Source: Sedimentibacter hydroxybenzoicus DSM 7310
Lineage (GTDB): Bacteria; Bacillota; Clostridia; Tissierellales; Sedimentibacteraceae
NCBI RefSeq assembly: GCF_013403245.1
Contig: NZ_JACBNQ010000013.1
Span: 1 to 64,000 of the forward strand
Direction: 5' to 3'
DNA: 64,000 nt
Numbering within the stretch: the stretch's first letter is position 1; every line of letters starts with the position of its first letter. Below are positions 40,157 to 64,000 of the stretch, one piece after another. The notes below the pieces were generated by a model that was not told where the DNA came from, ran no database searches, and worked only from the letters and a program-made list of their open reading frames with translations. The translations under genes were made by a program, and so were the position numbers.

Positions 40157-41506
40157 CAATGTGTTGGTGAAAGTGTTGATTTCATTCATGTTAATTCCGC
40201 TGTAGTTCAATGAGAACAACAGCTTGTTGTTGCTTAAGTTTATAATGTTTAACAAAATATCGTCGGCCTTTGCATCTTCCTTTATTTTTTCAATGCTTTT
40301 GGAGGTGGTTGCCTGACACACTATATGAAGACCTGAATCAGAATTAATAATTTCTATTTTATCTTTATAATTACTTTTTAAGCTGCCTGCCAAATTTAAA
40401 TTTTTCTTTCTGTAAATTCTTTTTACTTTTCTCAGATGCTTTTGCATATATCCGTCCTTCATAAAATGAGCAAGTACAATTTGGTCTATTTTTGAAGTAG
40501 ATTGAGTATGACGGTTTTTGATATCATTATATTTCGGCAAAAGCTTTTTTGGTATAACCATGAAGCTGATTCTTAGGGAAGGCAAAAGCATTTTAGAAAA
40601 TGACCCTAAATAAATTACGCAATCATTTTTATCCATCCCCTGAAGACATGGTATGGGCATACCTCCGTATCGTATCATGGCATCATAATCATCCTCAATT
40701 ATGAGTCCGTCATTTTTATATGCCCATTCCAACAGCTCCATACGCTTATTTACGGGCATAACAGTTCCCAAGGGGTATTGATGAGAAGGACTTATATAAA
40801 TCAATTTGGATTCGCTTTTTCTTAACATTGAAATATCAAAGCCGCTGTCGTTAATTTCAATGTGATTAATATTGAAATTATAATCTTCAAAAATATATTC
40901 CGCCTTGTTAAATCCCGGCTTTTCAAATGCAATTGTATTGTGTCTTTCTTTGATTACTCCTATTAATATGCCCAGCAAATATTGAACACCCGCGCCCACA
41001 ATAACCTGTTCCGGGTTCGTATGTCCTCCCCGCATTGTATTTACAAAATCGGATATTTCTTCTCTCAAAAATTGCTCACCCTGTATTGAGCAGCTGTTAT
41101 AAATTTTAGTTTCCTTGTCTGAAATTACTTTATTGTACAGCCTCTTCCACGTAGATATATCAAAGCTTTCCTTGTCTACACCATCATTTATATAATCATT
41201 ATCAAGCTGATGATTCATTACATTCTTATGAGTTTCCCTGATGATTTCAAAATTATATTCACTTAAGTCACATACAAAATACCCTCTCTTAGGGGAGTTT
41301 TCGATATAACCCTCTGCCACAAGCTGGCTGTATGCATTTTCAACGGTTGTCTTGCTTAAATTCAAGGTCGCTGAAGCCTCTCTGATAGAAGGAAGCTTAA
41401 CATCAGGCTTTAAAACTCCCGATGTTATTTCTGATTTTATAAATTCATAGAGCTGCATGTATATGGGAATGCTGCTTTCTCTGTTAAATATAGGCGATAT
41501 AATCAT
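40133..41506 (-). CDS. MocR/PdxR-type GntR regulator with aminotransferase domain
   Basis: A 457-residue regulator. The N-terminal GntR winged helix (about 10-75; PIYMQLYEFIKSEI, KLPSIREASATLNLSKTTVENAYSQL) is joined to a fold type I aminotransferase domain (about 110-455). The PLP lysine is in YLGSFSKMLLPSLRISFM, and SPSHQYPLGTVMP and IIEDDYDAMIRYGG are family blocks. Such proteins sense PLP or an amino compound. The last codons (GTVLFGL) are encoded by a terminator-like palindrome. RBS AAGGAGTAT. Divergent from the laccase-domain gene. Confidence 0.9.
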   Translation of the reverse strand: MIISPIFNRESSIPIYMQLYEFIKSEITSGVLKPDVKLPSIREASATLNLSKTTVENAYSQLVAEGYIENSPKRGYFVCDLSEYNFEIIRETHKNVMNHQLDNDYINDGVDKESFDISTWKRLYNKVISDKETKIYNSCSIQGEQFLREEISDFVNTMRGGHTNPEQVIVGAGVQYLLGILIGVIKERHNTIAFEKPGFNKAEYIFEDYNFNINHIEINDSGFDISMLRKSESKLIYISPSHQYPLGTVMPVNKRMELLEWAYKNDGLIIEDDYDAMIRYGGMPIPCLQGMDKNDCVIYLGSFSKMLLPSLRISFMVIPKKLLPKYNDIKNRHTQSTSKIDQIVLAHFMKDGYMQKHLRKVKRIYRKKNLNLAGSLKSNYKDKIEIINSDSGLHIVCQATTSKSIEKIKEDAKADDILLNIINLSNNKLLFSLNYSGINMNEINTFTNTLGTVLFGL

Positions 41507-41560
41507 AAATACTCCTTAAACTGACTTGTTCAAATTTTATAAAATTAACACAAATTGAGG

Positions 41561-41596
41561 TTACACATATTTTATCATATTTTTACACATATACAA
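41561..41596 (-). promoter_or_regulatory. Promoter of mocR with overlapping direct repeats
   Basis: On the minus strand TTGTAT (41596-41591), 16 nt and TAAAAT (41574-41569). Two direct repeats TTACACATAT at 41561-41570 and 41583-41592 (22 bp apart) overlap the core, as expected for MocR sites that bind direct repeats, suggesting autoregulation. Between 41597 and 41757 I see no other clear element except short ATCAAT repeats. Confidence 0.5.
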
Positions 41597-41757
41597 TAAA
41601 AAAATCATATGATATACTTATTAATATACTTCTTTGACGTTCGGAGTGACATAAACCGATGGTTTTAAGAAATTACTGTGGATAGTAATAATCAATAGCT
41701 AATCAATTGTTTAACAACTGCATATCAATTGATTATCAATCGTGAAAAGGAGCTGCT

Positions 41758-42585
41758 ATGTACAATATAAATGAAATTCAGGATTTTAAATATATAACAT
41801 TTCCGTCTTTTGAAGAATATGATGATATTTTCCACTGCTTTACTACAAGAGCGGGAGGAGTAAGCGAAGGTTCTTTTGCTTCTATGAACATAGGATTCAG
41901 CACCGGGGATAATGATGAAAATGTTAAAAGGAACATTGAAATAATGGCTGAAAGGCTTAACCTGAACGTTGACGACATAGTTGAAACTCATCAGACGCAT
42001 ACAAATAATATTATGTATGTAACGGAGGAGCATAAGGGAAGAATTTTTACAGAGGGAATCGAAAATAACATAAAGAATATAGACGGTATTTATACGGACA
42101 AAACAAATTTAACGTTGATGTCCTTCCATGCGGATTGCACACCTGTCTTTTTATATGATCCCATAAAGAAGGTTATCGGTTTAGCTCATGCAGGATGGAG
42201 AGGCACCGTTCAAAATATCGGAGGGGTTATGGTTAAAGCATTTATTAACGACTTTAATTCAGATCCGAAGGATATTAAAGCAGCCATAGGACCGTCTCTT
42301 TGCAAAGAATGTTTTGAGGTTGATGAGGATGTGAAGGATTTATTCGTTGCAACAGATGAAAGCTTTATGGATTTCATGGATACGAAGGGAATTAAATATT
42401 ACTTCAATCTGTGGGAAATCAATAAATATTTATTATTAAAAGAAGGACTAAGGGGAGAAAACATCGAAATATCAGGCATTTGCACTAAGTGCCGAAATGA
42501 TTTGCTTTTTTCACACAGAGGACAGGGTGGAAAAAGAGGTTTAATGACGGGCTTGCTAATGATGAAAAAACTACCACCCTTATAG
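41758..42585 (+). CDS. pgeF: Laccase-domain protein (YfiH/PgeF, CNF1-like)
   Basis: A 275-residue member of the Cu-oxidase_4/DUF152 family, purine-nucleoside phosphorylase-like or peptidoglycan editing factor. Metal and active residues are in FTTRAGGVSEG, VETHQTHTNN (near 76-85), FHADCTPVFLYDP (near 122-134) and LAHAGWRGT (near 142-150), plus AAIGPSLCKECFEV and CTKCRNDLLFSHRG. RBS AAAAGGAG. The 3' end forms a terminator hairpin. Confidence 0.9.
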   Translation: MYNINEIQDFKYITFPSFEEYDDIFHCFTTRAGGVSEGSFASMNIGFSTGDNDENVKRNIEIMAERLNLNVDDIVETHQTHTNNIMYVTEEHKGRIFTEGIENNIKNIDGIYTDKTNLTLMSFHADCTPVFLYDPIKKVIGLAHAGWRGTVQNIGGVMVKAFINDFNSDPKDIKAAIGPSLCKECFEVDEDVKDLFVATDESFMDFMDTKGIKYYFNLWEINKYLLLKEGLRGENIEISGICTKCRNDLLFSHRGQGGKRGLMTGLLMMKKLPPL

Positions 42586-42599
42586 AAGTGTGGTAGTTT
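42568..42599. terminator. Bidirectional terminator overlapping the pgeF stop
   Basis: AAACTACCAC (42568-42577) pairs with GTGGTAGTTT (42590-42599). On the minus strand it is followed by extra T, so it also serves the convergent amidinohydrolase operon. Confidence 0.75.
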
Positions 42600-42623
42600 A
42601 CATTCAATAGAAACTTAATTATT

Positions 42624-43574
42624 CTAACCTCTTTTTAAGAATGCGGTTACACAGTGAATAGCACCCCAGCCCTTTAGTATTTCGAAGAAGTCTGTGGAGA
42701 TAACTTTTATGCCGTTGTTTTCAAGTAGTTCCTTACACCTTGGATTTCCTTCGGGCTGGACAACTAATCCAGGTTTTATAGCTACAAAATTGATTCCTAA
42801 GGTTTCTTTTGCTTCAGTTTGTGATGGGGCTTCTAACAGTTTGAAGCCTTTCCTTTTTAAAGCCTCACAAACATCGTATGGAACTTGTGAGGCGTGAATC
42901 ATAGCAGTGTCATTGCTGGCGATGTTTAGCAGCCCATCTATATGTGCATGACCGTAAGGTATTTGCATATGTATAATATTATCTACGCCGATTCTTTTCA
43001 ATTCGTACTCAACCTGTTGGTATCCGTCTTTGTTGCATCTTACACCTGAAGCCAGTACAACAGTGTGCTTGTCAATCCATAGACCCATTGCTCCGTCAAA
43101 GGTTCCGTTTCCTGTAACGGTTTTAAGTATAGGAACTCCTAAATCAGAAAGAGCTTTGGCTGCATATCTTTCCTCGCCTCTCCTGGCAGCAATTGCGGGT
43201 CTTGTTACTATTGCTCCCTCAGGAGTCATAAAAACCAGGTCTCTCATGAACAAAGCATTAGGACGGTCCCCTCTTTGTTCTTTAACATAATAAACTTTAA
43301 CACCGTGGTTACTGTAAATTTCAGCTAAATCATCATGCTGTTTTCTAAATAAATCCACGTTTATGGGCTCTTTAAATCGCACTTCCTTATAATCGAAATT
43401 CTCTATTTCCTTTCCGGGTCTTCTCATTAGAACAGCTTTTAAATCTTCAACTTCGGAAGCTACTCCCCAATCACCCCAGTAAAGATCTATTTCGTCCTTA
43501 AAGCTGTTTTCATTTGGGAACCAGCGTTCACCGGGAATAGCATCAGTATCTATTTTAACTATGTCTTTATTCAT
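42624..43574 (-). CDS. Amidinotransferase/amidinohydrolase family enzyme 1
   Basis: A 316-residue guanidino-group-modifying enzyme of the DDAH/arginine deiminase superfamily. Landmarks: GDWGVASEVEDLKAVLMRRP near the N-terminus, RPNALFMRDLVFMTPEGA near 108, GNGTFDGAMGLWIDKHTVV, catalytic-histidine motif HAHIDG, and GAIHCVTAF with the nucleophilic C308. Much shorter than classical ArcA (about 400 residues). Likely reaction: hydrolysis of a guanidine to a ureido product and ammonia or an amine. Second gene after a sigma-54 promoter at 44610-44626, 38 nt after its paralogue. Confidence 0.85.
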   Translation of the reverse strand: MNKDIVKIDTDAIPGERWFPNENSFKDEIDLYWGDWGVASEVEDLKAVLMRRPGKEIENFDYKEVRFKEPINVDLFRKQHDDLAEIYSNHGVKVYYVKEQRGDRPNALFMRDLVFMTPEGAIVTRPAIAARRGEERYAAKALSDLGVPILKTVTGNGTFDGAMGLWIDKHTVVLASGVRCNKDGYQQVEYELKRIGVDNIIHMQIPYGHAHIDGLLNIASNDTAMIHASQVPYDVCEALKRKGFKLLEAPSQTEAKETLGINFVAIKPGLVVQPEGNPRCKELLENNGIKVISTDFFEILKGWGAIHCVTAFLKRG

Positions 43575-43611
43575 CGTAATGACTCCTTCTTAAATTTAAG
43601 TTGTATAGCAG

Positions 43612-44568
43612 CTATTGTCCTCTTTTTAAAAATGCCGTGACACAGTGTATTGCTCCCTTACCCTTCATAATTTCAGATACGTCAACGGTTATAACTTTTA
43701 TACCGTTGTTTTCGAGAAGCTCCTGGCTTCTGGGATTACCTTCCGGCATAACTATCAAACCCGGCTTCAATGCTACAAAATTACAGCCAAATGTACTACG
43801 TACTTCAGTGGTAGAAGGAGCTTCCAATATTTTGCATCCACATTTTTTCAGGGCATCGCATACATCATATGGTACCTGCGAAGCATGAATCATTACTATT
43901 TCTTCACTGGCCATGTTCATAATGCCGTCTATATGTATATTACTATAGGGAATCTGCATAGGTATAATATTATCTACTCCCATTTTTTCAAGCTCGTATT
44001 TTACTTGTTCATATCCGCTTTTATTAGTTCTGCTGCTGGTTGATAAAACTACGGTTTTTCTATTAACCCACATAGCATTTGCACCTTCAAATATGCCGTC
44101 ACCGTTAATTGTTCTTAATATAGGGACTCCCAGTTTAGCGAGAGCCTCCGCGATATATCTTTCTTCTCCCCTTCTGGCAGACATACCCGGTCTTGTAATT
44201 ATTGCTCCTTCTGGGGTCATAAACATTAAATCTCTGCAGAAAACAGCGTTAGGTCTGTCTTCTCTCTGTTGCTCCACGTAATATACTTCAATATTGTGAT
44301 TTCTGTATATTTGGGCAAGGTTGTCATGCTGATTTCTCATTAGCTCCACATCAATAGGTTCATCTGAAAATCTTACTTCATTTGCGTTGAATTTTTCTAC
44401 TTCCTTTCCGGGTCTGTACATTAGTACGGATTTTAAGTCATCTACTTCCGAGCATACTCCCCATTTTCCCCAATAAATCTCAATATCATCTCCAAAATAC
44501 GATTCTTTTGGGAACCAGCGCTCTCCGGCAATAGCGTCTATATCTTTTTTTACCGCTTCTTTATTCAT
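43612..44568 (-). CDS. Amidinotransferase/amidinohydrolase family enzyme 2
   Basis: A 318-residue paralogue of the next gene, alike over the whole length: GKWGVCSEVDDLKSVLMYRP, RPNAVFCRDLMFMTPEGA, GDGIFEGANAMWV, HIDGIMNMASEE and GAIHCVTAF with C309. It has Glu in IFEGA where enzyme 1 has Asp (TFDGA), which may alter substrate choice or allow heteromer formation. First gene after a sigma-54 promoter. RBS AAGGAG. Confidence 0.85.
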   Translation of the reverse strand: MNKEAVKKDIDAIAGERWFPKESYFGDDIEIYWGKWGVCSEVDDLKSVLMYRPGKEVEKFNANEVRFSDEPIDVELMRNQHDNLAQIYRNHNIEVYYVEQQREDRPNAVFCRDLMFMTPEGAIITRPGMSARRGEERYIAEALAKLGVPILRTINGDGIFEGANAMWVNRKTVVLSTSSRTNKSGYEQVKYELEKMGVDNIIPMQIPYSNIHIDGIMNMASEEIVMIHASQVPYDVCDALKKCGCKILEAPSTTEVRSTFGCNFVALKPGLIVMPEGNPRSQELLENNGIKVITVDVSEIMKGKGAIHCVTAFLKRGQ

Positions 44569-44609
44569 TGTAATTGCTCCTTATATTTTCTTTTTCTTAA
44601 TTTCATATC

Positions 44610-44626
44610 ATGCAATTTCTGTGCCA
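44610..44626 (-). promoter_or_regulatory. Sigma-54 promoter of the amidinohydrolase pair
   Basis: On the minus strand TGGCAC-AGAAA-TTGCAT: GG and GC exactly 10 nt apart, full consensus. It lies about 45 nt before the ATG at 44568. Confidence 0.85.
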
Positions 44627-44685
44627 TATGTAAAACACAACCTGAAATTTTTGTTTTAGTATGGTCTGCTAATATTTTAAGGGGC

Positions 44686-44736
44686 AAAAAAAAATTAGTA
44701 AAAAATTTTTTACTAATTTGTAAAGTAATACTTTAC
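44686..44736 (-). terminator. Activator-gene terminator and adjacent inverted repeat
   Basis: 44692-44719 is a perfect 28-nt palindrome (AAATTAGTAAAAAA and its complement), followed on the minus strand by a T-run (44691-44686). Next to it, 44720-44736 is a GTAAAGT-AAT-ACTTTAC inverted repeat overlapping the activator stop. It lies about 95 bp upstream of the sigma-54 -24 box, a possible enhancer site. Confidence 0.6.
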
Positions 44737-46109
44737 TTAAAACATAAATTATCTTTATCTAATTCATATTTTTCCATTTTATAGTATAGGTTTTGCTTTG
44801 TTATCTTAAGTTTTTTTGCTGCATCTGTAAATTTATCTGATTTTTTTATTGCATTTATAATTAATTTTTTTTCATAATTATGAACTGCTTCATTCAGCGA
44901 AATATCATTGTCTATCTCAAAATTGCAGTTATTAACTGGAATTTTATAGATGTATTCCGGCAGATCCTTTTTTTGAATTATCCGAGATGATGTTAAATTA
45001 AAGGCGCCTTCTATAATATTCCTAAGCTCTCTGACATTTCCCGGCCAGTTGTATTTTTGAAAAATATCTTCCACTTCTTCAGATATATCAATTATATTTC
45101 TGTTCATTTTGTTGTTAAAATAGTCGATAAAATACTTTGTAAGGTAATTTACATCTTGTCTTCTTTCCCTTAAAGAAGGCAAATCCAATTGAACAACGCT
45201 GAGTCTGTAAAATAAATCCTCTCGCAGTTTTTTTTCCTTAAGACATACTGAAGGGTCCTCATTTATAGCGGAAATAATTTTTACATCCGTGTTTATGGCT
45301 TCAATTCCACCTATTCTGGTAATTTTTTTTTCTTCAATTGCTTTAAGTATTTTGGCTTGTACACTTATTTCCATTGAATTTATCTCATCCAGAAATAGGG
45401 TTCCTCCATTAGCTATTTCAAATAATCCGGGTCTGTTTTCGGCTCCGGTGTAACTTCCTTTTGTTGTACCGAACAGAATGCTTTCCAAGAGAGTTGATGG
45501 TATAGATGCACAGTTTTGAGACACAAATCGTTTGTTTTTACGATTGCTGCTTGTGTGTATAGATTGGGCCACTAACTCCTTTCCCGTTCCGGTTTCTCCA
45601 TAAATTAAAACTGTGGAGTCCGTCTGGGCGACTTTCTTGATTTTTTCCTTAATATTATCTAATGTAGGGGAATTTGTAATAATATCATCAACAGTATACA
45701 AGGATTTTTTCTGCTCATTGTTTTTAATTGACAGCACTATATCCTGACGTTGGTAGCAGTCATCCACATATCTGGAGACATCTACTACTCCTATTATATC
45801 TTCGTTATGCTTTACTAAAAGTGTCGAATTTATAGCATTTATCGTTTGTCCCTTATAAGAAACTAAAGATTGAAATTCGTTAAATATAGATTTTCCGGTT
45901 TTAAGTGCCCTCATAACACTGCTTGTTTCTTCCGTCAATGTGGGATATACAGTTAATACATGTTTTCCTATAGCATCTTTTTCCTCTAAATTATTTATAT
46001 CCTGCCTAAAGTTTGTGTAATACTCGATTATCCCTTTGTTATTAGTAACAAGAACACCATCTATATAATTATATATACTTAAAATCTGTTCCACATATCT
46101 TCTCAGCAT
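44733..46109 (-). CDS. PAS-containing sigma-54-dependent transcriptional activator
   Basis: A 458-residue enhancer-binding protein. The N-terminal PAS-like sensor is at about 1-125. The AAA+ domain is at about 140-380: Walker A YGETGTGKELV (170-180), sigma-54 contact loop GSYTGA (218-223, Ser-Tyr in place of the common GAFTGA), and Walker B GGTLFLDEIN (235-244). The Fis-type HTH is at about 415-450 (FTDAAKKLKITKQNLYYKM). No receiver domain, so it senses a ligand directly. Two sigma-54 promoters on either side are the obvious targets. Confidence 0.93.
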   Translation of the reverse strand: MLRRYVEQILSIYNYIDGVLVTNNKGIIEYYTNFRQDINNLEEKDAIGKHVLTVYPTLTEETSSVMRALKTGKSIFNEFQSLVSYKGQTINAINSTLLVKHNEDIIGVVDVSRYVDDCYQRQDIVLSIKNNEQKKSLYTVDDIITNSPTLDNIKEKIKKVAQTDSTVLIYGETGTGKELVAQSIHTSSNRKNKRFVSQNCASIPSTLLESILFGTTKGSYTGAENRPGLFEIANGGTLFLDEINSMEISVQAKILKAIEEKKITRIGGIEAINTDVKIISAINEDPSVCLKEKKLREDLFYRLSVVQLDLPSLRERRQDVNYLTKYFIDYFNNKMNRNIIDISEEVEDIFQKYNWPGNVRELRNIIEGAFNLTSSRIIQKKDLPEYIYKIPVNNCNFEIDNDISLNEAVHNYEKKLIINAIKKSDKFTDAAKKLKITKQNLYYKMEKYELDKDNLCFK

Positions 46110-46195
46110 GACTTTTCTCCTTGATTATTAATGTTAATACTATATCAAAAACGTTGATTTGTCAAGGTATATTATGATATGTCAATTTTTTAACA

Positions 46196-46215
46196 TTGTT
46201 ATTTATGAATAACAA
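46196..46215. promoter_or_regulatory. Inverted repeat, candidate activator enhancer site
   Basis: TTGTTATT-TATG-AATAACAA, a perfect 8-bp palindrome about 80 bp upstream of the sigma-54 -24 element. The rest of the 46110-46407 gap is AT-rich and otherwise shows only short GTCAA repeats. Confidence 0.45.
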
Positions 46216-46294
46216 GTATTATAATAATAAAGTATATTTTTTGTCTGTGTTCTGTCGGAATTAATATAAATAACTATATTTTATAGTTTGATTG

Positions 46295-46312
46295 TTGGTA
46301 CGGAAATTGCAT
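46295..46312 (+). promoter_or_regulatory. Sigma-54 promoter of the oligopeptide-type transporter
   Basis: TTGGTACGGAAATTGCAT: GG (-24) and GC (-12) 10 nt apart with a TTGCAT -12 block. It is about 95 nt before the binding-protein start. Confidence 0.8.
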
Positions 46313-46407
46313 ATGATTAGTTAGTAGTGAAAATTATTTACATAACAAAAGGAGGAAAGTTAGACTTAACACCATAACAAAAACTTAAATAATATGGAGG
46401 AAATTGT

Positions 46408-47976
46408 ATGAATAAAAGATTTGTGGCAATCGTTTTAACAGTTTTAATGGTTGCGGGATTAATTTCAGGCTGTGCAGGAAATTCTGTATCACAGAACGAC
46501 AACCTGTCTCCTGAGGAAAGAACAATTAGACTCAGAGTAAATGATTCTATACCATCACTCGATTGGGAGCAATCTACAAGTCTACGTGCTGTTAAGGTAT
46601 GGCATCAAATGTTTGAAGGACTATATGGAATGGATGAGGCAAAGGGCGGCTATTATAAGGAACTGGCTAAGGAAGTAAGCCTTAGTGACAATCAGAAGGA
46701 ATATACTATTACTCTGCAGGATGGAGTAAAGTTCCAGAACGGGGAAGTTATGAAAGCTTCTGATGTCGTGTTCAGTTATGAGAGAGCAATGAAAAATCCA
46801 AGATTTAATTATGTAACGTCTATGATTGAAGATGTTGTTGAAATCAATGATAATACTGTAAAAATAACTTTAAAAACTCCTTTTTCTGCAATTGATCATA
46901 CTTTTTTCAGCATAAAGATTTCCAGCGAGAAAGAAGTATTGGAACAGGGAGACAAGTTTGGTACTATACCGCACAAAGCTGGTACAGGTCCATATTATGT
47001 AACTGAATATAATGTAGCAACGGACATAAAGCTTAATGCATTTGAAGATTATTGGAGAGGTTCACCGGCTATTAAAAAAATTGAGTATAGAGTTATATCT
47101 GATGATGCTGCCGCAGTAATAGCTTTTGAAAACCATGAGCTTGATTATTTAGAGGATGCTCCTCTGACAGACTGGGAATCGCTGGTTAAGGCTTCTGGTG
47201 AAAATCACTCATTAACTAAGGGTAATGACGTATTGTTTTTAGGCGTAAACTATTTGTCCCCTACGAACAATAATATTCTTGTTAATGACAAGGTAAGACA
47301 AGCAATATTCTATGCTGTAAATAAAAAGGATATGAATTCCGCTGCATGTAACGGTTACGGTGTAGAGACACCTTACTATATGCCTCCGGAATATGTTGCT
47401 ACTTCACCTAAGGACGGATTTGAAACATATGAGTACAATCCTGAGAAGGCGAAACTACTTTTAGCAGAAGCAGGTTATCCTGACGGAGTAGATGTGGGAA
47501 CTATTCTTACTTATGGAGCAAGTACAGGTGACAAGGCAAAGATGGCACAGGTTCTGCAGGCAAATCTTGCTGATGTGGGAATAACCTCTGCTGTATCTGT
47601 AATGGAATCTGCCGTGGTATTACCTAGGTTGTATGATCAGGATTATGATATTTGTATATATGCTGATTCCAATAATTTTGATTTCAATAATATAAGACAA
47701 ATGGTTCACAGTGAATCGGTAGGTATGTATATTGTTAAGTACAAGGATGGTCCGTTTAACTGGAAACGTCTTGAAGAACTTGTGGATCTAGGTGTTTCTA
47801 CATCTAATGTAGATGAACGCGTCGGATATTACAGGGAGTTATGGTCGATTACTATGGATTCTGCGACTCTGCTGCCTTGCCTGTCAAAGCCTGTACCTAC
47901 TGTGTGGGCATCTAATCTGGAAATCGGAACTCCTGTTCCTTCATTCTATAAGATACGTACATTCAGCTGGAAATAA
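46408..47976 (+). CDS. Oligopeptide/dipeptide-type ABC substrate-binding lipoprotein
   Basis: A 522-residue SBP_bac_5 family lipoprotein: signal peptide with lipobox ISGC (cysteine near 22), then TIRLRVNDSIPSLDWEQS, YTITLQDGVKFQNGEVMKASDVVFSYERA and KAGTGPYYVTEY. Binds peptides, nickel or other cationic ligands. Here the context of guanidino enzymes suggests a guanidino amino acid or small peptide. RBS GGAGG. First gene after the sigma-54 promoter, with its four partners following. Confidence 0.92.
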   Translation: MNKRFVAIVLTVLMVAGLISGCAGNSVSQNDNLSPEERTIRLRVNDSIPSLDWEQSTSLRAVKVWHQMFEGLYGMDEAKGGYYKELAKEVSLSDNQKEYTITLQDGVKFQNGEVMKASDVVFSYERAMKNPRFNYVTSMIEDVVEINDNTVKITLKTPFSAIDHTFFSIKISSEKEVLEQGDKFGTIPHKAGTGPYYVTEYNVATDIKLNAFEDYWRGSPAIKKIEYRVISDDAAAVIAFENHELDYLEDAPLTDWESLVKASGENHSLTKGNDVLFLGVNYLSPTNNNILVNDKVRQAIFYAVNKKDMNSAACNGYGVETPYYMPPEYVATSPKDGFETYEYNPEKAKLLLAEAGYPDGVDVGTILTYGASTGDKAKMAQVLQANLADVGITSAVSVMESAVVLPRLYDQDYDICIYADSNNFDFNNIRQMVHSESVGMYIVKYKDGPFNWKRLEELVDLGVSTSNVDERVGYYRELWSITMDSATLLPCLSKPVPTVWASNLEIGTPVPSFYKIRTFSWK

Positions 47977-48095
47977 TTAAAAGCATACTATGTACTAATA
48001 AGGGTATTTGCGGAATGTATTAGGATATTCATAGCATCTCCTAAGAATAGCTGAGGAGATGCTGATGAATATATAAGAAAAGTTAGGAGACAAAA

Positions 48096-49037
48096 ATGTA
48101 TAGATATATTATAAAAAGGATACTATTTCTTATACCTACGGTTTTGGGAGTTGTGTTTATTATTTATTTCGTAATGAATATAACACCGGGAGATCCTGCC
48201 CGTGCAATGCTTGGTTCATCAGCTCCCCAAGCAGATATAGACAAGCTTAATCATGAGTTAGGATATGACCTACCGTTTCTTCAGAAATATTTTAATTATA
48301 TTTACAATATGGTAGTAAAACAAGACTTTGGAATATCTTATTTTACTAGGCAATCTGTTTTCGCAGAAATATGGCCAAGGTACATCGTAACCATAAATTT
48401 GGCCTTAATGGGTGTTGTGTTATCCTCTGTAATAGGAATACCTTTGGGAATATATGCTGCAGTAAAGCAGTATTCTTTATGGGATACAGTTCCATCCATT
48501 TTTGCATTTTTAATAGCCGCAGTACCTTCATTCGTACTAGGAATGATTCTACTTTTTGTATTTTCTCTTAAGCTTAATTTACTTCCATCATACGGAATTA
48601 CATCCTTCAGTAATTATATAATGCCTGCACTTACCATTTCTATACCGCCAGCTGCAATGAACTTAAGATTTACCAAGTCTTCTATGCTGGAATCAATTAG
48701 ACAGGATTTTGTTCGCACAGCAAGAGCTAAAGGAGCGCCTGAAAAAATAGTTATATGGAAGCATGCTCTAAAGAATGCCATGTTACCAATTATAACTAAT
48801 ATAGGGTTAAATCTTGGAATGCTTATAGCAGGAGCAGTTGTTGCGGAAAAGCTGTTTTCTATTCCTGGTATCGGAAGTTTGATTGTAGATAGGATAACAT
48901 ATAAGGATGAACCTGTTATTATCGCCGGAACAATATTAATTGCAGTTTGTTTTACAATTGTTATGCTAATGGTTGATGTAATATATGCATATATAGATCC
49001 GAGAATAAAGGCTAAGTATGCAAGAATGAAGGGATAA
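48096..49037 (+). CDS. Dipeptide-type ABC transporter permease (DppB-like)
   Basis: A 313-residue inner-membrane permease with an N-terminal helix (ILFLIPTVLGVVFIIYFVMN), about six helices and the EAA coupling loop DFVRTARAKGAPEKIVIWKH near 207. It forms the pore with the next gene. RBS TTAGGAG. Confidence 0.94.
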   Translation: MYRYIIKRILFLIPTVLGVVFIIYFVMNITPGDPARAMLGSSAPQADIDKLNHELGYDLPFLQKYFNYIYNMVVKQDFGISYFTRQSVFAEIWPRYIVTINLALMGVVLSSVIGIPLGIYAAVKQYSLWDTVPSIFAFLIAAVPSFVLGMILLFVFSLKLNLLPSYGITSFSNYIMPALTISIPPAAMNLRFTKSSMLESIRQDFVRTARAKGAPEKIVIWKHALKNAMLPIITNIGLNLGMLIAGAVVAEKLFSIPGIGSLIVDRITYKDEPVIIAGTILIAVCFTIVMLMVDVIYAYIDPRIKAKYARMKG

Positions 49038-49041
49038 AGAT

Positions 49042-49941
49042 ATGAAGGATACTACAATGGACAACGTTATGAGAAATAGCGGTATATCATTTAAAAAACA
49101 AAGTCAAACAAAAGAAATATGGAGAAGGTTTAAAAAAAGCAAAGGTGCCGTTATCGGGTTGGTTATGCTTGTGATTATTTTAATGATTCTGTTATTTGCA
49201 GATTTTATTGCGCCCTATACAGCGGCTACAAAGCAAAATCTTGCTAACAAGCTTCAAGGTCCTTCTTTAGCACACTTGTTCGGGACAGATTCTTATGGTC
49301 GTGATGTGTTTGCCCGTATAGTGCATGGAGGCAGAACATCTATACTTATAGCTATCCTATCTACTATTTCTTCATGTATAATAGGCAGTGCACTAGGAGC
49401 TATTGCCGGTTATTTCGGAGGTAAAATAGATAGTATTATTATGAGATCATTGGATATTTTTATGTCCGTACCTGATATTCTTTTTACCATGGCTGTGGTA
49501 TTTGCCCTTGGTGCTAATTTTGTCAATTTGCTGGTTGCACTTACATTAGCATATTTTACAAATTATGTGAGGCTGGTTCGTTCACAGGTTCTTAATCTTG
49601 CAGAACTTGACTATGTTGAAGCTGCAAGGGCCGGTGGTGCAAGCAGTGCAAGAATTATAGCATCTCACATTCTGCCTAATGCTATGGGAGTTATAATCGT
49701 AAATACTACACTTAACGTTTCTAAGATTATATTGTACGAGTCTACATTAAGTTTTTTAGGTTTGGGGATGCCACCTCCGGCTCCTGAATGGGGATTGATG
49801 CTTTCAGAGGCAAGGGAGTTTATGCGTACTTCTCCTCACTTGCTGTTTTTCCCGGCTATGGCAATCGTTTTGACTGCGTGTTCCGTGAACCTCATAGGTG
49901 ACGGACTGAGAGATGCACTTGACCCACATTTAAAATCTTAG
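49042..49941 (+). CDS. Dipeptide-type ABC transporter permease (DppC-like)
   Basis: A 299-residue permease: N-terminal OppC_N helix ([20 protein letters not shown]), [20 protein letters not shown] near 79, EAA loop [20 protein letters not shown] near 191, and [16 protein letters not shown]. Four bases after the DppB-like stop. Confidence 0.94.
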
Positions 49942-49967
49942 CTTACTTAAGTAGAAAGGATATGATT

Positions 49968-50978
49968 ATGAACGAATTGATTTTAGATATAGATGATTTG
50001 TCGGTTATTTATAAAACGGACCTAGAAACTGTTAAGGCTGTTAATGGTATCAACCTTAAAATAGGGAAGGGAAAAACTCTAGGTTTGGTAGGAGAAACCG
50101 GAGCAGGCAAAACTACAACTGCTTTGTCAATATTGAAATTGCTGCCGGAAAATACGGGAAAGGTAACAAGTGGAAATGTTAAATTTGAAGGCACTAACCT
50201 CCTTGAGATGAATGAGCATGAAATACGTGAAATAAGAGGGGGACAGATTGCTATGGTTTTTCAGGACCCTATGACAAGTCTTAATCCGGTTATGACCGTA
50301 GGGGACCAGATTGCAGAGGCTATTATAATGCATAATGAAGGACTGAGTAAAGGGGAGATAGAAAAACGCATTGATGAAAAACTTACAATGGTAGGAATAC
50401 TTCCATCAAGAAAGACTGAATATCCTCACCAGTTTTCTGGAGGTATGAAGCAAAGGGTTGTAATAGCCATGGCACTTGCATGCGAGCCTAAGCTTCTTAT
50501 TGCTGATGAACCAACTACCGCACTTGATGTTACAATACAGGCACAGGTGTTGATGATGATTAAGGAACTTAGAAATCGTTTGGGAACATCAATGCTAATG
50601 ATAACCCATGACTTGGGAGTTGTGGCAAAAATATGTGACGACGTGGCAGTTATGTATGCAGGAGAAATTGTTGAGGCGGGTACTGTTCATGATATATTTC
50701 TTGGAGAGGATCATCATCCGTATACTGAAGGTCTATTTGGCTCTATTCCCAACCTTTCTTCCAGAACAAAAAGGCTGAACTCTATTCCAGGATTGATGCC
50801 TGACCCAACAAATCTGCCGGAAGGCTGTATTTTTGCTCCAAGGTGCAAATATTGTATGGACATATGTATTAGAGTACATCCAAATACCGTATTTGACGAA
50901 ACTCATTCCCTGAAATGCCATTTGTTTGATGGCAAATTACGTAGGGACAAGCAGGAGGGAAAAAGTGAAAAACAATAA
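49968..50978 (+). CDS. Dipeptide-type ABC transporter ATPase (DppD-like)
   Basis: A 336-residue ATPase: Walker [10 protein letters not shown] near residue 42, Q-loop [16 protein letters not shown], signature [15 protein letters not shown], Walker [13 protein letters not shown]. The C-terminal oligo_HPY domain has [15 protein letters not shown], a probable cysteine-ligated iron-sulfur or metal site typical of the family. ATG 49968 has AGAAAGGA eight bases upstream; ATG 49962 is too close. Confidence 0.93.
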
Positions 50979-51951
50979 ATCAACTCCGTTAATAGAAACC
51001 ATAGGGTTAAGAAAACTGTTTAAATTAAATGGCGGTGCAAGGCTTCATGCTGTAGATGGTATTAATCTTAAAATATATCCCGGAGAAACTGTAGGGGTGG
51101 TAGGAGAGTCCGGATGTGGCAAAAGTACTCTTGGAAGAACTATACTTAGACTGATTGAGCCAACATCAGGTCAAATTTTATATAATGGAAGTGATATAAC
51201 TAAGATAAGTGCGGGAAAAATGCGCGAGATGAGAAAAGATCTTCAGATAATTTTTCAGGATCCGTATTCAAGCATTGATCCACGTAAATCGGTTATAGAT
51301 ATAATAGCTGAATATATGTTTATACATAAGGTATATAAAAATAAAATTGATACTTATAACCGTGCAGCGGAGCTTATGGATTTAGTAGGTTTGGCAAGAA
51401 GATATTCAAGCTCATATGCTCACGAACTTGATGGCGGGCGCCGCCAGCGTATAGGAATTGCCAGAGCATTATCGTTAAATCCCAAATTTATTGTATGCGA
51501 CGAGCCGGTTTCTGCATTGGATGTTTCAATTCAGGCTCAAATTCTGAATCTTTTGATGGATTTGGAGGAGGAGCTGGGTCTTACATATATGTTTGTTACT
51601 CATAACCTAAGTGTAGTTAAGCATATTTCAACTAAAATAATGGTTATGTATCTTGGTAAATGTGTGGAAATGGCATCTTCGGACGAATTGTTCCAAAATC
51701 CGATGCATCCATATACAAAGGCATTGCTAAAGGCAATACCAGAGCCGGATATTTCAAAGAGGGATGAAGAATTTGCTCTTATTAAAGGAGAAGTAAGTAG
51801 TCCTATTAACGTAAAGCCTGGATGTAGGTTTGCAAAACGATGTGATTTTTGTTTTGACAGGTGTATCCAGGAGGATCCAAATCTTACGGAAGTTTCCTAT
51901 GAACATTTTGTTTCATGTTTTTTGGTAGAAAAAAATAAAGTAGAAAAGTAA
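50965..51951 (+). CDS. Dipeptide-type ABC transporter ATPase (DppF-like)
   Basis: A 328-residue ATPase: Walker [11 protein letters not shown]-loop [15 protein letters not shown], signature region [16 protein letters not shown] (LDGGR in place of the usual LSGGQ), Walker [13 protein letters not shown], and C-terminal [18 protein letters not shown] start at 50965 behind GCAGGAGGG, overlapping the end of dppD by 14 nt. The Ser-to-Asp change in the signature suggests this site may be the less active one of the heterodimer. Confidence 0.92.
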
Positions 51952-52138
51952 ATGAAAAAATACTATTTATTGTCTGTTATGGCGTTATAAGTTACCGGAA
52001 AACTTGCAATTATGATATTGAAAATAATCGTATTTTAAGAATTAGAATCTCTTTATGAGGTTTCATATTGCTAATTTCAATTGTTTATTATTTTTATAGA
52101 TGTTTGGTATTATATATATTTTTTAGGAGGAAGGTAAA

Positions 52139-53137
52139 ATGTCAGTTAACTTAAAAGGAAGAAGTCTTTTAACACTAATGGATTTAACACCTGAAGAAAT
52201 AAGGTATATTTTGGATCTTGCTCATGACTTAAAAGCAAAAAAAAGAGCTGGTATCAGCAATTACCTGTTAAAAGGGAAAAATATTGTATTGCTGTTTGAA
52301 AAAACATCAACAAGAACAAGATGTGCATTTGAAGTTGCAGCGTTAGAGGAAGGAGCTCATGTTACATTCTTGGATTCAGGAAGTTCGCAAATGGGCAAAA
52401 AAGAATCATTGGAGGATACGGCAAAAGTACTGGGAAGATTTTATGATGGAATAGAATATAGGGGATATGAGCAGCAGGTTGTAGAAAAACTAGCAAAATG
52501 TTCTGGAGTGCCTGTATGGAATGGACTGACTGATGTAGATCATCCCACACAAATACTGGCTGATATGATGACTATAGAAGAGCATGTTGCAAAACCGCTT
52601 AATAAAGTGAAATTAGTATTTACGGGTGATATAAGAAATAATATGTCGTTTGCTTGGATGTACGGCTGTGCTAAAATGGGAATGCACTATGTTGCATATG
52701 GGCCAAAGGAACTGTTTAATGAAATAGATTCAGAAATGATTAAAAAAGTCGAAGAGGTTGCCAGCTATACCGGTGCCATCATAGAAATAACTGATGATGC
52801 AGGAGCTCTAAAGGGAGCGGATGTTATTTATACAGATGTATGGGCATCAATGGGAGAAGAATCACAGATACCGGAAAAGGTAAGAATTATGACACCTTTT
52901 AAAGTTACAATGAAAATGCTGAAAGCAACAGAGAATACTGATGTAAAATTTATGCATTGTCTACCGGCATTTCACGATTTTGAAACTAAAATGGCTAATG
53001 ATCAAAAAGATTTGGGATTTGATATAAGAGAAGTTACTGATGAAGTATTTAGAAGCAGACATTCTATAGTATTTGATGAAGCAGAAAATAGAATGCATTC
53101 TATCAAAGCTGTTATAGTGTCAACTATAGGATACTAA
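52139..53137 (+). CDS. arcB: Ornithine carbamoyltransferase (catabolic, ArcB-like)
   Basis: A 332-residue transcarbamylase. Carbamoyl-phosphate motif STRTR (57-61), HPTQ (135-138), ornithine-loop DVWASMGE (233-240) and the HCLP motif (273-276). The DIRNNMS segment replaces the usual DGRNNV. With carbamate kinase next door and the amidinohydrolases in the same locus, it probably runs in the catabolic direction: citrulline plus phosphate to ornithine and carbamoyl phosphate. RBS TTAGGAGGAAGG. The 187-nt gap before it holds no clear sigma-54 site. Confidence 0.92.
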   Translation: MSVNLKGRSLLTLMDLTPEEIRYILDLAHDLKAKKRAGISNYLLKGKNIVLLFEKTSTRTRCAFEVAALEEGAHVTFLDSGSSQMGKKESLEDTAKVLGRFYDGIEYRGYEQQVVEKLAKCSGVPVWNGLTDVDHPTQILADMMTIEEHVAKPLNKVKLVFTGDIRNNMSFAWMYGCAKMGMHYVAYGPKELFNEIDSEMIKKVEEVASYTGAIIEITDDAGALKGADVIYTDVWASMGEESQIPEKVRIMTPFKVTMKMLKATENTDVKFMHCLPAFHDFETKMANDQKDLGFDIREVTDEVFRSRHSIVFDEAENRMHSIKAVIVSTIGY

Positions 53138-53163
53138 AGTAACTATAATATACGGAGTGTGCA

Positions 53164-54111
53164 ATGAAACCAAAAAGATTAGTTATCGCACTAGGCGGAA
53201 ATGCTTTAGAAGATAAAAATATGCCTTCTACTGCGGAGTCTCAGTTAGAAGTAGTAAAAAAAACATGCGAATTTATAGCAGAAATCATATATTTAGGTTA
53301 TGAAATCGCTATAGTACATGGAAATGGACCACAAGTAGGAAGAATAATGCTGGCATCTGAAGCTGCCAAAGACGTAACGCCTGTAATGCCTTTTGATGTA
53401 TGCGGGGCTATGAGCCAGGGTTATATAGGATACCATATACAACAGAGCTTAAAACAAGTCATGGCAAAACGAAATATAACAATGCCTGTTGTAAGTATAA
53501 TAACGCAGGTTATTGTGGATAAAAATGATGAGGCCTTTCAAAATCCAATGAAACCAATTGGACCATTTTATACAGAAGAAGAATCAAAGAAGTTAGCTCA
53601 TGAAAGAGGATATACAGTTAAAGAAGATGCCGGAAGAGGTTATAGGAGGGTAGTGCCATCACCAATGCCAACACAAATAGTTGAAATAGATACTATTAAA
53701 ACATTGCTGAATACAACTATTCCTATAGCGTGTGGCGGTGGTGGAATTCCTGTAATAGAAAGCGAGAATGGTTCACTAAAAGGAGTAGCGGCAGTAATAG
53801 ATAAGGATTTAGTTGCTGAAAGGTTAGCAGAAGATATAGGTGCCGATATACTTTTGATTCTTACTGAGGTAGAAAAAATATCAATAAACTTTAAAAAAGC
53901 AAATCAAATAGATCTATCTTATCTGACTGTAGATGATGCAAAAAAATATATTGAAGAAGGCCATTTTGCACCGGGTAGTATGCTCCCAAAAGTAATTGCT
54001 TCTGTAAATTTTGCAAAATCTTCTCCCGGAAGGAAAGCAATAATAACTTCTTTGTATAAGGTTGCAGATGCTTTAGAAGGAAAAAACGGTACAGTTATTG
54101 AATGTAAGTAG
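53164..54111 (+). CDS. arcC: Carbamate kinase
   Basis: A 315-residue amino-acid-kinase-fold enzyme making ATP from carbamoyl phosphate and ADP. Landmarks: VIALGGNALED at the N-terminus, VHGNGPQVG near 52, GYIGYHIQQSL near 77, EDAGRGYRRVVPSP near 151, IACGGGGIPV and VIDKDLVAERLAEDIGAD. It is 27 nt after arcB, and the pair forms the energy-yielding end of the deiminase route. Confidence 0.95.
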   Translation: MKPKRLVIALGGNALEDKNMPSTAESQLEVVKKTCEFIAEIIYLGYEIAIVHGNGPQVGRIMLASEAAKDVTPVMPFDVCGAMSQGYIGYHIQQSLKQVMAKRNITMPVVSIITQVIVDKNDEAFQNPMKPIGPFYTEEESKKLAHERGYTVKEDAGRGYRRVVPSPMPTQIVEIDTIKTLLNTTIPIACGGGGIPVIESENGSLKGVAAVIDKDLVAERLAEDIGADILLILTEVEKISINFKKANQIDLSYLTVDDAKKYIEEGHFAPGSMLPKVIASVNFAKSSPGRKAIITSLYKVADALEGKNGTVIECK

Positions 54112-54216
54112 AATGTACGGGAAACTTTATATTTAAATTATAATTAAATTATTATCATAACCTTCGTACATGCTAAATATAATAATATATATAAAGCTGT
54201 GAGGAGGTTATGAAAA

Positions 54217-55269
54217 TTGGCATATAAGAGGATAATATCTCTGATTATGATTGTTTGCTTAAGCTTAAGTATTACCGCATGTGGCACTTTAGATATGATG
54301 GTAGGGCTGAAACAGGAAAATAATCCGGATACAACTGATTTTGCAAACTTAACTGACTTTGAAATAGTGGAAGATACAATCGGAGAAGAAATAGTCGAAG
54401 AACCTGTTATAGAAACCGTTACCGTAGATCCGGAGCAAGCTAAAGTGACAGATATTTTGGCTTATTTTGAGGATGAAAACGGATTTGTAGTTCCTGTTAA
54501 TACAAAAATTGACTGGGAAGAAGGAATTGCAAAAGCTACCCTTAGAAGTATGGTAGCTGGAAGTGAAACTGAAAAAAAACTGGCAGGCTCGGGACTTCAC
54601 GGTGTGCTGCCTGAAGGAACAGAAATCAGAGGGATGGCTATAAAGGATGGTCTTTGCAGAGTGGATTTTACTAAGAACATATTAAATACTTCTTCCTATG
54701 AGCAGGAAGAAAATATGATTTCTGCAATTACATATACACTAACTGAATTCCCCACTATAGATAAAGTCGAATTGTTGGTTGAAGGTCAAGTTTTAGCTTC
54801 ATTATCAAAGGGATACGCTATTAATACTGCATTCGAAAGAGGAAATATTAATTTGCACGGCTCCAGGGACGGTGTTAATTTTACAGTATACTATAAGGCA
54901 CCTGACACAGAGGTTATGGGTCACTATGTTCCTATAACATTCTCAGCTTCATCACTCAATAATCCTGTTAAAAACGTATTGGAAAAATTGTTCAGCGGGG
55001 CACCGGAAGAAACAGTTCTGAGCAATAATATTCCTGTCGGAATCAATTTACGAGGAGTAGATATTGTAAGTGATACGGCTGTAGTTAACTTAGGTGTCGG
55101 GGCTGTTAATTTGTCGGAAGAAGAATACAGAGATATGAATGCGATTGTTGTACTTTGTTTAGAGCAGTATGGAATTTCCGATGTAGAATTCAATATCGAA
55201 GGAGTTTCGTTTGAAGAAGCGGGCTTGCATTTCGATGATGGGGTAATGCCAGCATTTAATCAATATTAG
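54217..55269 (+). CDS. GerMN-domain lipoprotein
   Basis: A 350-residue lipoprotein: signal peptide with lipobox ITAC (cysteine near 22), acidic Thr/Glu-rich linker, then two GerMN domains (about 80-195 and 210-340; LPEGTEIRGMAIKDGLCRVDF and VPVGINLRGVDIVSDTAVVNLG). GerM family proteins act in spore cortex and germination. The start is TTG 54217, nine bases after AGGAGG. A decoy ATG at 54210 gives only a 5-codon reading frame that overlaps it. Confidence 0.85.
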   Translation: MAYKRIISLIMIVCLSLSITACGTLDMMVGLKQENNPDTTDFANLTDFEIVEDTIGEEIVEEPVIETVTVDPEQAKVTDILAYFEDENGFVVPVNTKIDWEEGIAKATLRSMVAGSETEKKLAGSGLHGVLPEGTEIRGMAIKDGLCRVDFTKNILNTSSYEQEENMISAITYTLTEFPTIDKVELLVEGQVLASLSKGYAINTAFERGNINLHGSRDGVNFTVYYKAPDTEVMGHYVPITFSASSLNNPVKNVLEKLFSGAPEETVLSNNIPVGINLRGVDIVSDTAVVNLGVGAVNLSEEEYRDMNAIVVLCLEQYGISDVEFNIEGVSFEEAGLHFDDGVMPAFNQY

Positions 55270-62516: not shown

Positions 62517-64000
62517 CTATCTTTTAACATTAGCAATAATTTTTTTAATTTCTCCTAAAGTCATGAAACGCTTGGAGAAGTCAGTACCTGTAATTGATTC
62601 AAATTCCTTAACTATATCGCTGTAATAGTCAAGCATATAGTAATTTTTATCAAGATAAGTTCCTGAAATTTTATTCAATTCATTTACAAGAATCCTTGTT
62701 GAATATTTGTTGTCAGTGCTTAACTGTAAGAGCCTAATAAGCAATAGAGCAATAAAACAAGTCAGAAAATGAGCTTCAATGTGCTCTGGAGTTGACACGT
62801 TGACAGGTCTTGTCTTTAGCTCGGTTTTAGTTATCTTAAAACTTTCTTCAATCTTCCATAAACTACGATAAGCATCTAATATTTCTTCGTTGGGCATATC
62901 TAATTCACTGGTTACAATTGCATAGTAACCGTCATATTTACATTCCTCAGCAATTCTATTTGAATCTATCCAGTGGACTTCAGACAACTCAAATATTTCA
63001 CCTGTTTTTTTATCTAATGATTGAGATTTAATATATTTAGCTGCACCTTTTTCTGGTAATTTCCCGTTCTTTGATATACTCATAAGTTTTCTTGCTTTTT
63101 CGATAGCTTTTTCTCTTTCGTGTCCAGCTCGTTTGGCAAAGTCAGGGCTGTAGAATACAACCTGCTTTTGAATAATATCAACCTTTTTAGTTTTATCCTC
63201 AGTGTTTGTAACATTTATTTTAACACTTACAACCCGTGATTTAATTTTAAAACCATCATCATGTATTATGTATCCGCTTTGATCCAAGACATATTTTTTA
63301 AACTCATCAGTACCACCGCGAATAGTTTGCGAATAGATATAACCATTTTTCTTAAGTATGTTGTAAGCAATATTTTCTCCAGTATTCATACCTTTATCAG
63401 CAACTACAATAATTTTGCCCAAGGCATAATCATCTTTTAAATTATCAAGAACGGGCATTAAGGTTTCGCAGTCGTTAGTATTGCCCTCAAACAGTCTGTA
63501 TGTAATTGGTAAACCGTTGTTATCCATCAATAAACCCATTTGTATAATTGGGTTTTTCTTGTTTTCCTTAGATACGCCCTTCTTTCGCAAATCATCAGGT
63601 TCTTTAATCTCAAAGTAGTAATTAGTGACATCGTAATATACCTTATTGGTATCTCTGCCATAATGTATTCTAATCATTTCGTGTAAATGTAAAAGCAGAT
63701 CATCCTTATACCGCTTAAAATGATCTAAAGACCTATAGACATCATTTATACCAATATCCAAGTCCATAAAAAGATCATCCTTAGTTTCAAAAGCTTCCTT
63801 CTTAGAGCATGGATTTAGAACCCTTGAGTAAACAAGGAGTTGGAAAATATTGTTGAGAGAAAATTCAATATTCAAATTTCTTTGCCTATTGATTAAAAAT
63901 CCATCAATACCTAATTTATGATAAAAGTAACTTAAAACAACAAATCCAAGATTCTTTCTTAAGGTGGTGGAAGAATCTATGATTTCGTTCAGCCGAAATG
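62517..64000 (-). mobile_element. IS1634-family transposase, partial (continues past the window)
   Basis: The minus frame is open from 62517 to the right edge; residues beyond the first Met-like codon (STTLRKNLGFVVLSYFYHKL, then GIDGFLINRQRNLNIEF) also fit the family, so the gene is cut by the window boundary, not truncated. DDE transposase of the IS4 superfamily, IS1634 group: YDVTNYYFEI, KIIVVADKGMNTGENI and YRSLWKIEESFKITKTEL (YREK-like). It lies upstream of the orphan binding-protein gene. Confidence 0.85.

Follow-up and report, generated by a model that had tools for sequence, protein, structure and literature searches.

A sigma-54 activator gene flanked by two consensus sigma-54 promoters on opposite strands in Sedimentibacter hydroxybenzoicus

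In Sedimentibacter hydroxybenzoicus DSM 7310, the gene of a sigma-54 activator is the sole gene between two sigma-54 promoters that face in opposite directions. This arrangement raises the question whether one activator serves both promoters and from which sites on the DNA it would do so. The locus lies in a stretch of 64,000 nucleotides (contig NZ_JACBNQ010000013.1, positions 1 to 64,000), referred to here as the window, and its features are compiled in Table 1. A preliminary description of this DNA had reported two consensus sites with exact GG-N10-GC spacing, each with an inverted repeat upstream. As the two repeats differ, it had regarded the enhancer motif as unresolved.

Table 1. Features of the locus, with positions in the window.
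Feature	Position	Strand	Remarks
Arginine-deiminase/DDAH-like protein 2, 316 aa	42624..43574	minus	PF02274, 62.6 bits
Arginine-deiminase/DDAH-like protein 1, 318 aa	43612..44568	minus	PF02274, 88 bits (cut-off 22.8)
Sigma-54 promoter TGGCACAGAAATTGCAT of the deiminase-like genes	44610..44626 (44626-44610)	minus	counterpart in L031
Perfect 28-bp palindrome	44692..44719		holds predicted enhancer dyad 2 GTAAAAAATTTTTTAC, 44698-44713
Predicted enhancer dyad 1 GTAAAGTAATACTTTAC	44720..44736		overlaps the activator stop codon
Sigma-54 activator, 458 aa	44733..46109	minus	PAS fold, AAA+ with GSYTGA loop, Fis-type HTH
Sigma-A type promoter TTGACA-N17-TAGTAT of the activator gene	46137..46165	minus	
Two TGT-N10/12-ACA dyads, rival local sites	46180-46195 (N10), 46197-46214 (N12)		second inside the plus-side palindrome
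Plus-side palindrome	46196-46215		8-bp arms, 4-bp loop
Sigma-A-like match TTGTTA-N18-TATAAT	46196-46225		upstream of oppA
AT-rich block upstream of the opp promoter	46253..46290		conserved between window and L031 (alignment)
Sigma-54 promoter TGGTACGGAAATTGCAT of the opp-type operon	46296..46312	plus	16-base element identical in L031
Opp/Dpp/Nik-type importer genes, here named oppABCDF	46408..51951	plus	
Ornithine carbamoyltransferase (OTC) and carbamate kinase genes	52139..54111	plus	above TIGR00658 and TIGR00746 cut-offs

Inspection of the sequence confirms the exact spacing and the -24/-12 consensus at both promoters. The pattern TGGYACN5TTGCAT is matched twice in the 64-kb window, by these two promoters only, against a mean of 0.01 in 100 dinucleotide shuffles. 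Across the organism's own genome (G000; 3.81 Mb, 71 contigs), the pattern TGGYAYN5TTGCW has 61 matches, whereas its reversed form has 5; the genome also contains one sigma-54 gene (PF04552, E 4.2e-65). Both elements of the window are present again in the related locus L031. Furthermore, a scan of 35 loci showed a sigma-54 site of score 10-11 no more than 420 bp behind the activator in 26 of them. Judged by sequence, both promoters of the window look real. Sequence, gene context and conservation in L031 all support their arrangement on opposite strands around one activator, as first described.

The minus promoter faces two deiminase-like genes, while the plus promoter faces the importer genes, followed downstream by those of OTC and carbamate kinase. 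The terminator scan gave no terminator-like match in the 188-bp gap ahead of the OTC gene. The reaction of the deiminase-like proteins is assigned from context, because both pass PF02274 but neither reaches an NCBIfam cut-off. Against the ArcA profile TIGR01078 they score 91.6 and 62.2 bits, below its cut-off of 489.1. Both paralogues lie far under the ArcA and DDAH cut-offs and may catalyse a reaction other than that of a classical arginine deiminase. Adjacent in the window, the paralogues are found side by side or apart in relatives. Among the importer proteins, the binding protein matches PF00496, the two permeases match Opp families under the cut-off in both cases, and the two ATPases are named from their translations and from BLAST matches between loci only. 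Further along the window, an open reading frame on the minus strand (62517-63875) has a translation that reads like an insertion-sequence transposase.

The activator contains the AAA+ sigma-54 interaction domain PF00158 and the HTH domain PF02954, as identified by profile search. Its first 118 residues have no PAS match in Pfam; structure prediction gives a PAS fold for them (pLDDT 89.4), with the CitA PAS domain as the best PDB match (E 7.7e-6). The loop GSYTGA represents a double change from GAFTGA. Single-change variants such as GSFTGA and GAYTGA are named in the part of PMC6615313 available to us, and the double variant is not among them. The best NCBIfam match is PrdR (NF041552; residues 14-449), at 346.8 bits below the cut-off of 795. 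PrdR is likewise a clostridial sigma-54 activator of amino-acid use. The sigma-A type promoter of the activator gene has a counterpart, TTGACA-N17-TATTAT, seen by eye ahead of the L031 activator. When the own genome was queried with one activator, 31 matches were obtained, one of them very weak, which gives about 30 activators. With this number and the 61 sigma-54-like sites, sigma-54 control in this genome is very extensive.

For comparison, 43 loci from named genomes were used, plus further loci. L031 is probably one and the same contig as L002 and L155, given their equal length, and was counted once; it encodes an activator 91% identical to that of the window. It has the same order of opp genes, activator and two deiminases, with both promoters kept. 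Activators that are about 61-66% identical are found near deiminase or OTC genes in L032-L038, L040, L045 and L178-L180. Those of L039 and L053 reach best-segment identities of 56% and 51%. In a tree of 40 activators, the window pairs with L031 (100/99) and is then joined by L060 (96/78). These three fall within a 13-row group (95/89), 12 rows of which are linked to deiminase or OTC genes. Three other deiminase/OTC-linked rows lie outside this group, and the label requires four changes on the tree, two of them forced by well-supported branches. The loci with a deiminase/OTC link do not form a single clade on this tree.

Gene order in three of these loci supports joint control of import and breakdown. 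L178 has one twin-dyad promoter ahead of a deiminase gene and opp genes, whose products are 71-78% (OppBCDF) and 53% (OppA) identical to those of the window. In L039 the opp set downstream of a deiminase gene is less similar (25-62%), and in L037 an OTC gene follows the promoter.

The candidate binding motif emerged from an alignment of 11 regions behind the activator gene, in which two dyads are conserved. They have the form GTAAA-N6/7-TTTAC and lie 22 bp apart in the window, where dyad 1 directly adjoins the 28-bp palindrome that holds dyad 2. Both inverted repeats of the preliminary description exist and do differ, but only the minus-side one exceeds chance. Its 14-bp arms did not occur in any of 300 shuffles of 44627-44760, while the 8-bp arms on the plus side occurred in 14% of 300 shuffles of 46110-46295. 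The window holds 23 repeats of the latter class, and the plus-side palindrome is absent from L031. It is probably not a site of this activator and was rejected as such. On the minus side, comparison resolves the motif as twin GTAAA-N6/7-TTTAC.

A search for the same site in related loci, suggested at the outset as a check, bears this out. Of the 250-bp regions that precede 16 deiminase/OTC promoters, 11 contain an exact dyad; in three others the best dyad has one mismatch and in two it has two. The dyad is thus present within one mismatch in 14 of the 16 regions, whereas in 200 shuffle sets no dyad, whatever its sequence, was shared by more than 4 of 16. A single one-mismatch dyad is not rare, occurring in 0.5-15.5% of shuffles. 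Among the loci outside the alignment that suggested the motif (L034, L053, L178, L179, L180), three have an exact dyad, one has one mismatch and one has two. The weak cases are L038 and L053, with two mismatches at the near promoter. The set of 16 leaves out L043 (contig end before any promoter), L035 (a near-duplicate of L034), L046 and L048 (twin dyads, yet not deiminase-linked) and the more distant activators L141-L143 and L148.

Spacing is conserved as well. The two dyads lie 20-23 bp apart in 12 of 17 loci, here including L035, 40-45 bp apart in three and 19 bp apart in one; one locus has no pair. The conserved part consists of the paired GTAAA/TTTAC arms at fixed spacing. Among the 61 sigma-54-like sites of the own genome, one has such a pair within 300 bp upstream, namely the deiminase promoter. 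Single dyads are not enriched in this genome (20, compared with 30 in the reversed control). In L034 and L035 the deiminase promoter is 3.5 kb from the activator gene, and it is the promoter that has the pair beside it; this ties the pair to the promoter. It is conservation that points to a specific site upstream of the deiminase promoter. Sequence comparison also supports an association of the twin dyads with this group of activators and with deiminase/OTC genes.

Relatives of the activator with 41-55% identity, including L042, L047 and the Flavonifractor loci, have no dyad within one mismatch near the activator end; the motif is thus not shared by the wider activator family as a whole. L142, L143 and L148 have one exact dyad each, and L141 has none. 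The activators of L143 and L148, about 50-55% identical to that of the window, stand ahead of Na+/H+-antiporter-type genes with an exact GTAAA/TTTAC dyad. Given these two loci, the site may predate the link to deiminase genes.

No comparable site is found near the opp promoter. The best GTAAA/TTTAC match there has three mismatches in the window and two in L031, as in shuffles. The same applies to the six promoters located beyond the activator gene (window, L031, L032, L036, L038 and L060), with best matches of 2-3 mismatches; the upstream sequence was 250 bp for L032, 123 bp for L036 and 157 bp for L038. The distant promoters have no dyad in common. Those of L032, L036 and L038 are deiminase-1 promoters. 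The 16.8-kb locus L060 has a single full-score sigma-54 site, which precedes a TauE-type gene and lies on the other side of the activator gene from the dyads, at a distance of 1.47 kb; by our own count, one of these dyads has one mismatch and its partner three. The distance from the dyad midpoint to the distant promoter is 1579 bp in the window, 1636 bp in L031, 2506 bp in L032, 2490 bp in L036, 2553 bp in L038 and 1465 bp in L060. A seventh candidate, site 5966 of L039, was dropped, as it lies inside a lysozyme-type coding region.

With the minus side resolved and the plus-side repeat probably no site of this activator, the comparison points to one enhancer for two promoters rather than two different enhancers. 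We therefore favour, with reasonable though far from full confidence, a model in which the twin dyads act as enhancer for both promoters, reaching the opp promoter over 1.58 kb by looping. The activator would be transcribed from its own sigma-A type promoter and would sense a signal, probably arginine or a product of arginine, through its PAS domain. It would bind the twin dyads at the 3' end of its own gene and open the deiminase promoter, 80-100 bp away. By DNA looping, the same enhancer would open the opp promoter on the far side of the activator gene. Uptake of the presumed substrate by the importer and its breakdown by deiminase, OTC and carbamate kinase would then be switched on together. 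A broader proposal is made tentatively, its chances being slightly short of even: an enhancer within the 3' end of the activator gene, over the stop codon, would work in both directions, including on a second promoter 1.5-2.5 kb away. This layout would be kept across several genera while the distant target changes (opp, deiminase, TauE-type exporter).

A real rival, though a clearly less likely one, is that the opp promoter depends on sigma-54 but answers to another activator with binding sites nearby, such as the TGT-N10/12-ACA dyads. These two dyads are 18 bp apart and lie 90-110 bp upstream of the opp promoter, and TGT-N10-12-ACA is used by 15 clostridial activator groups according to the available part of PMC6615313. 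At least one such dyad nevertheless arises in about a third of shuffles and at least two in 77 of 1000 (7.7%), and L031 keeps the opp promoter with no TGT/ACA dyad of 10-12 bp spacing; a TGT-N9-ACA is seen there by eye. The own genome would offer about 30 activators for this role. In genome G009 a related oppA adjoins another activator, but the best match of the latter in the own genome is only 45% identical.

Less probable still is control of opp by the same activator from local sites that are degenerate or differently built. The AT-rich block, conserved between the window and L031, could be such a site; against this, the best local dyads are no better than those of shuffles and the distant promoters lack a common dyad. 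It is very unlikely that transcription of the operons begins at sigma-A promoters, with the sigma-54 sites unused. The region 41500-54400 does contain 72 sigma-70-like matches (shuffle mean 53.9, sd 8.3), and one of these lies upstream of oppA; this reading leaves the recurrence of both sigma-54 elements in L031, and of high-scoring sites behind the activator in most scanned loci, unaccounted for. The palindrome lies at the stop codon with a T run after it on the minus strand and may double as a weak terminator for the activator gene, but termination as its sole role was rejected as scarcely credible, given its absence from the matches of the terminator scan, the position of the pair in L034 and L035 and the conservation of paired arms.

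The shared-enhancer model has precedents, and comparison with them suggests that the locus may be a further case of known control of the sox/rocG type. SoxR of Bacillus thuringiensis HD73 acts through a single site in the sox locus on both soxB and soxC, the latter at least 1.7 kb away (PMC4941409). As proposed for the window, one activator site there serves two sigma-54 promoters, near and far, that flank the activator gene and drive operons in opposite directions. The SoxR site, however, is at the 5' side of the activator gene, with the distant promoter after the gene, whereas the predicted site of the window is at the 3' end. SoxR furthermore targets sarcosine genes through one 11-bp repeat with a 7-bp gap, in contrast to twin dyads. 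For rocG of Bacillus subtilis, the same source recounts that RocR activates from 1.5 kb downstream. The rocG/rocABC system shares arginine catabolism, sigma-54 and one activating region that works at short range and from 1.5 kb; its target genes are different, and the comparison is at the level of description. Matches in Bacilli were not accepted as RocR: L062, the one looked at, has neighbours that do not read like roc genes. The most unusual trait of the present locus is the predicted enhancer position at the activator's stop codon, with the second promoter beyond the gene.

PMC6615313 describes 39 clostridial activator groups, mostly of PAS type, involved in amino-acid catabolism and encoded near the genes they control; multiple sites 100-250 bp upstream are frequent. 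By description, AguQ (aguDA, aguBC) is the nearest parallel there, for agmatine; Table 1 of that paper, as available, contains no group with arginine deiminase or opp targets. A literature search with most subscription papers outside its range found no paper on a sigma-54 activator of arginine deiminase or opp genes. For the deiminase route and its importer in a group of Clostridia-related bacteria, the present analysis puts forward a candidate activator together with a binding motif and targets. The window, L031, L032 and L060 may serve as natural variants for how far a bacterial enhancer acts. They also raise the question whether activator genes are often bracketed by promoters sharing one enhancer. 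Another pair of opposite sigma-54 sites (contig C5, 70953/72771) was discarded; the stretch read, that around the second site, has no activator ORF. In L140 (G009:C43, 1624-1960), a related oppA is preceded by a sigma-54 promoter and by another activator, 38% identical; large GC-rich dyads between oppA and that activator could be its sites.
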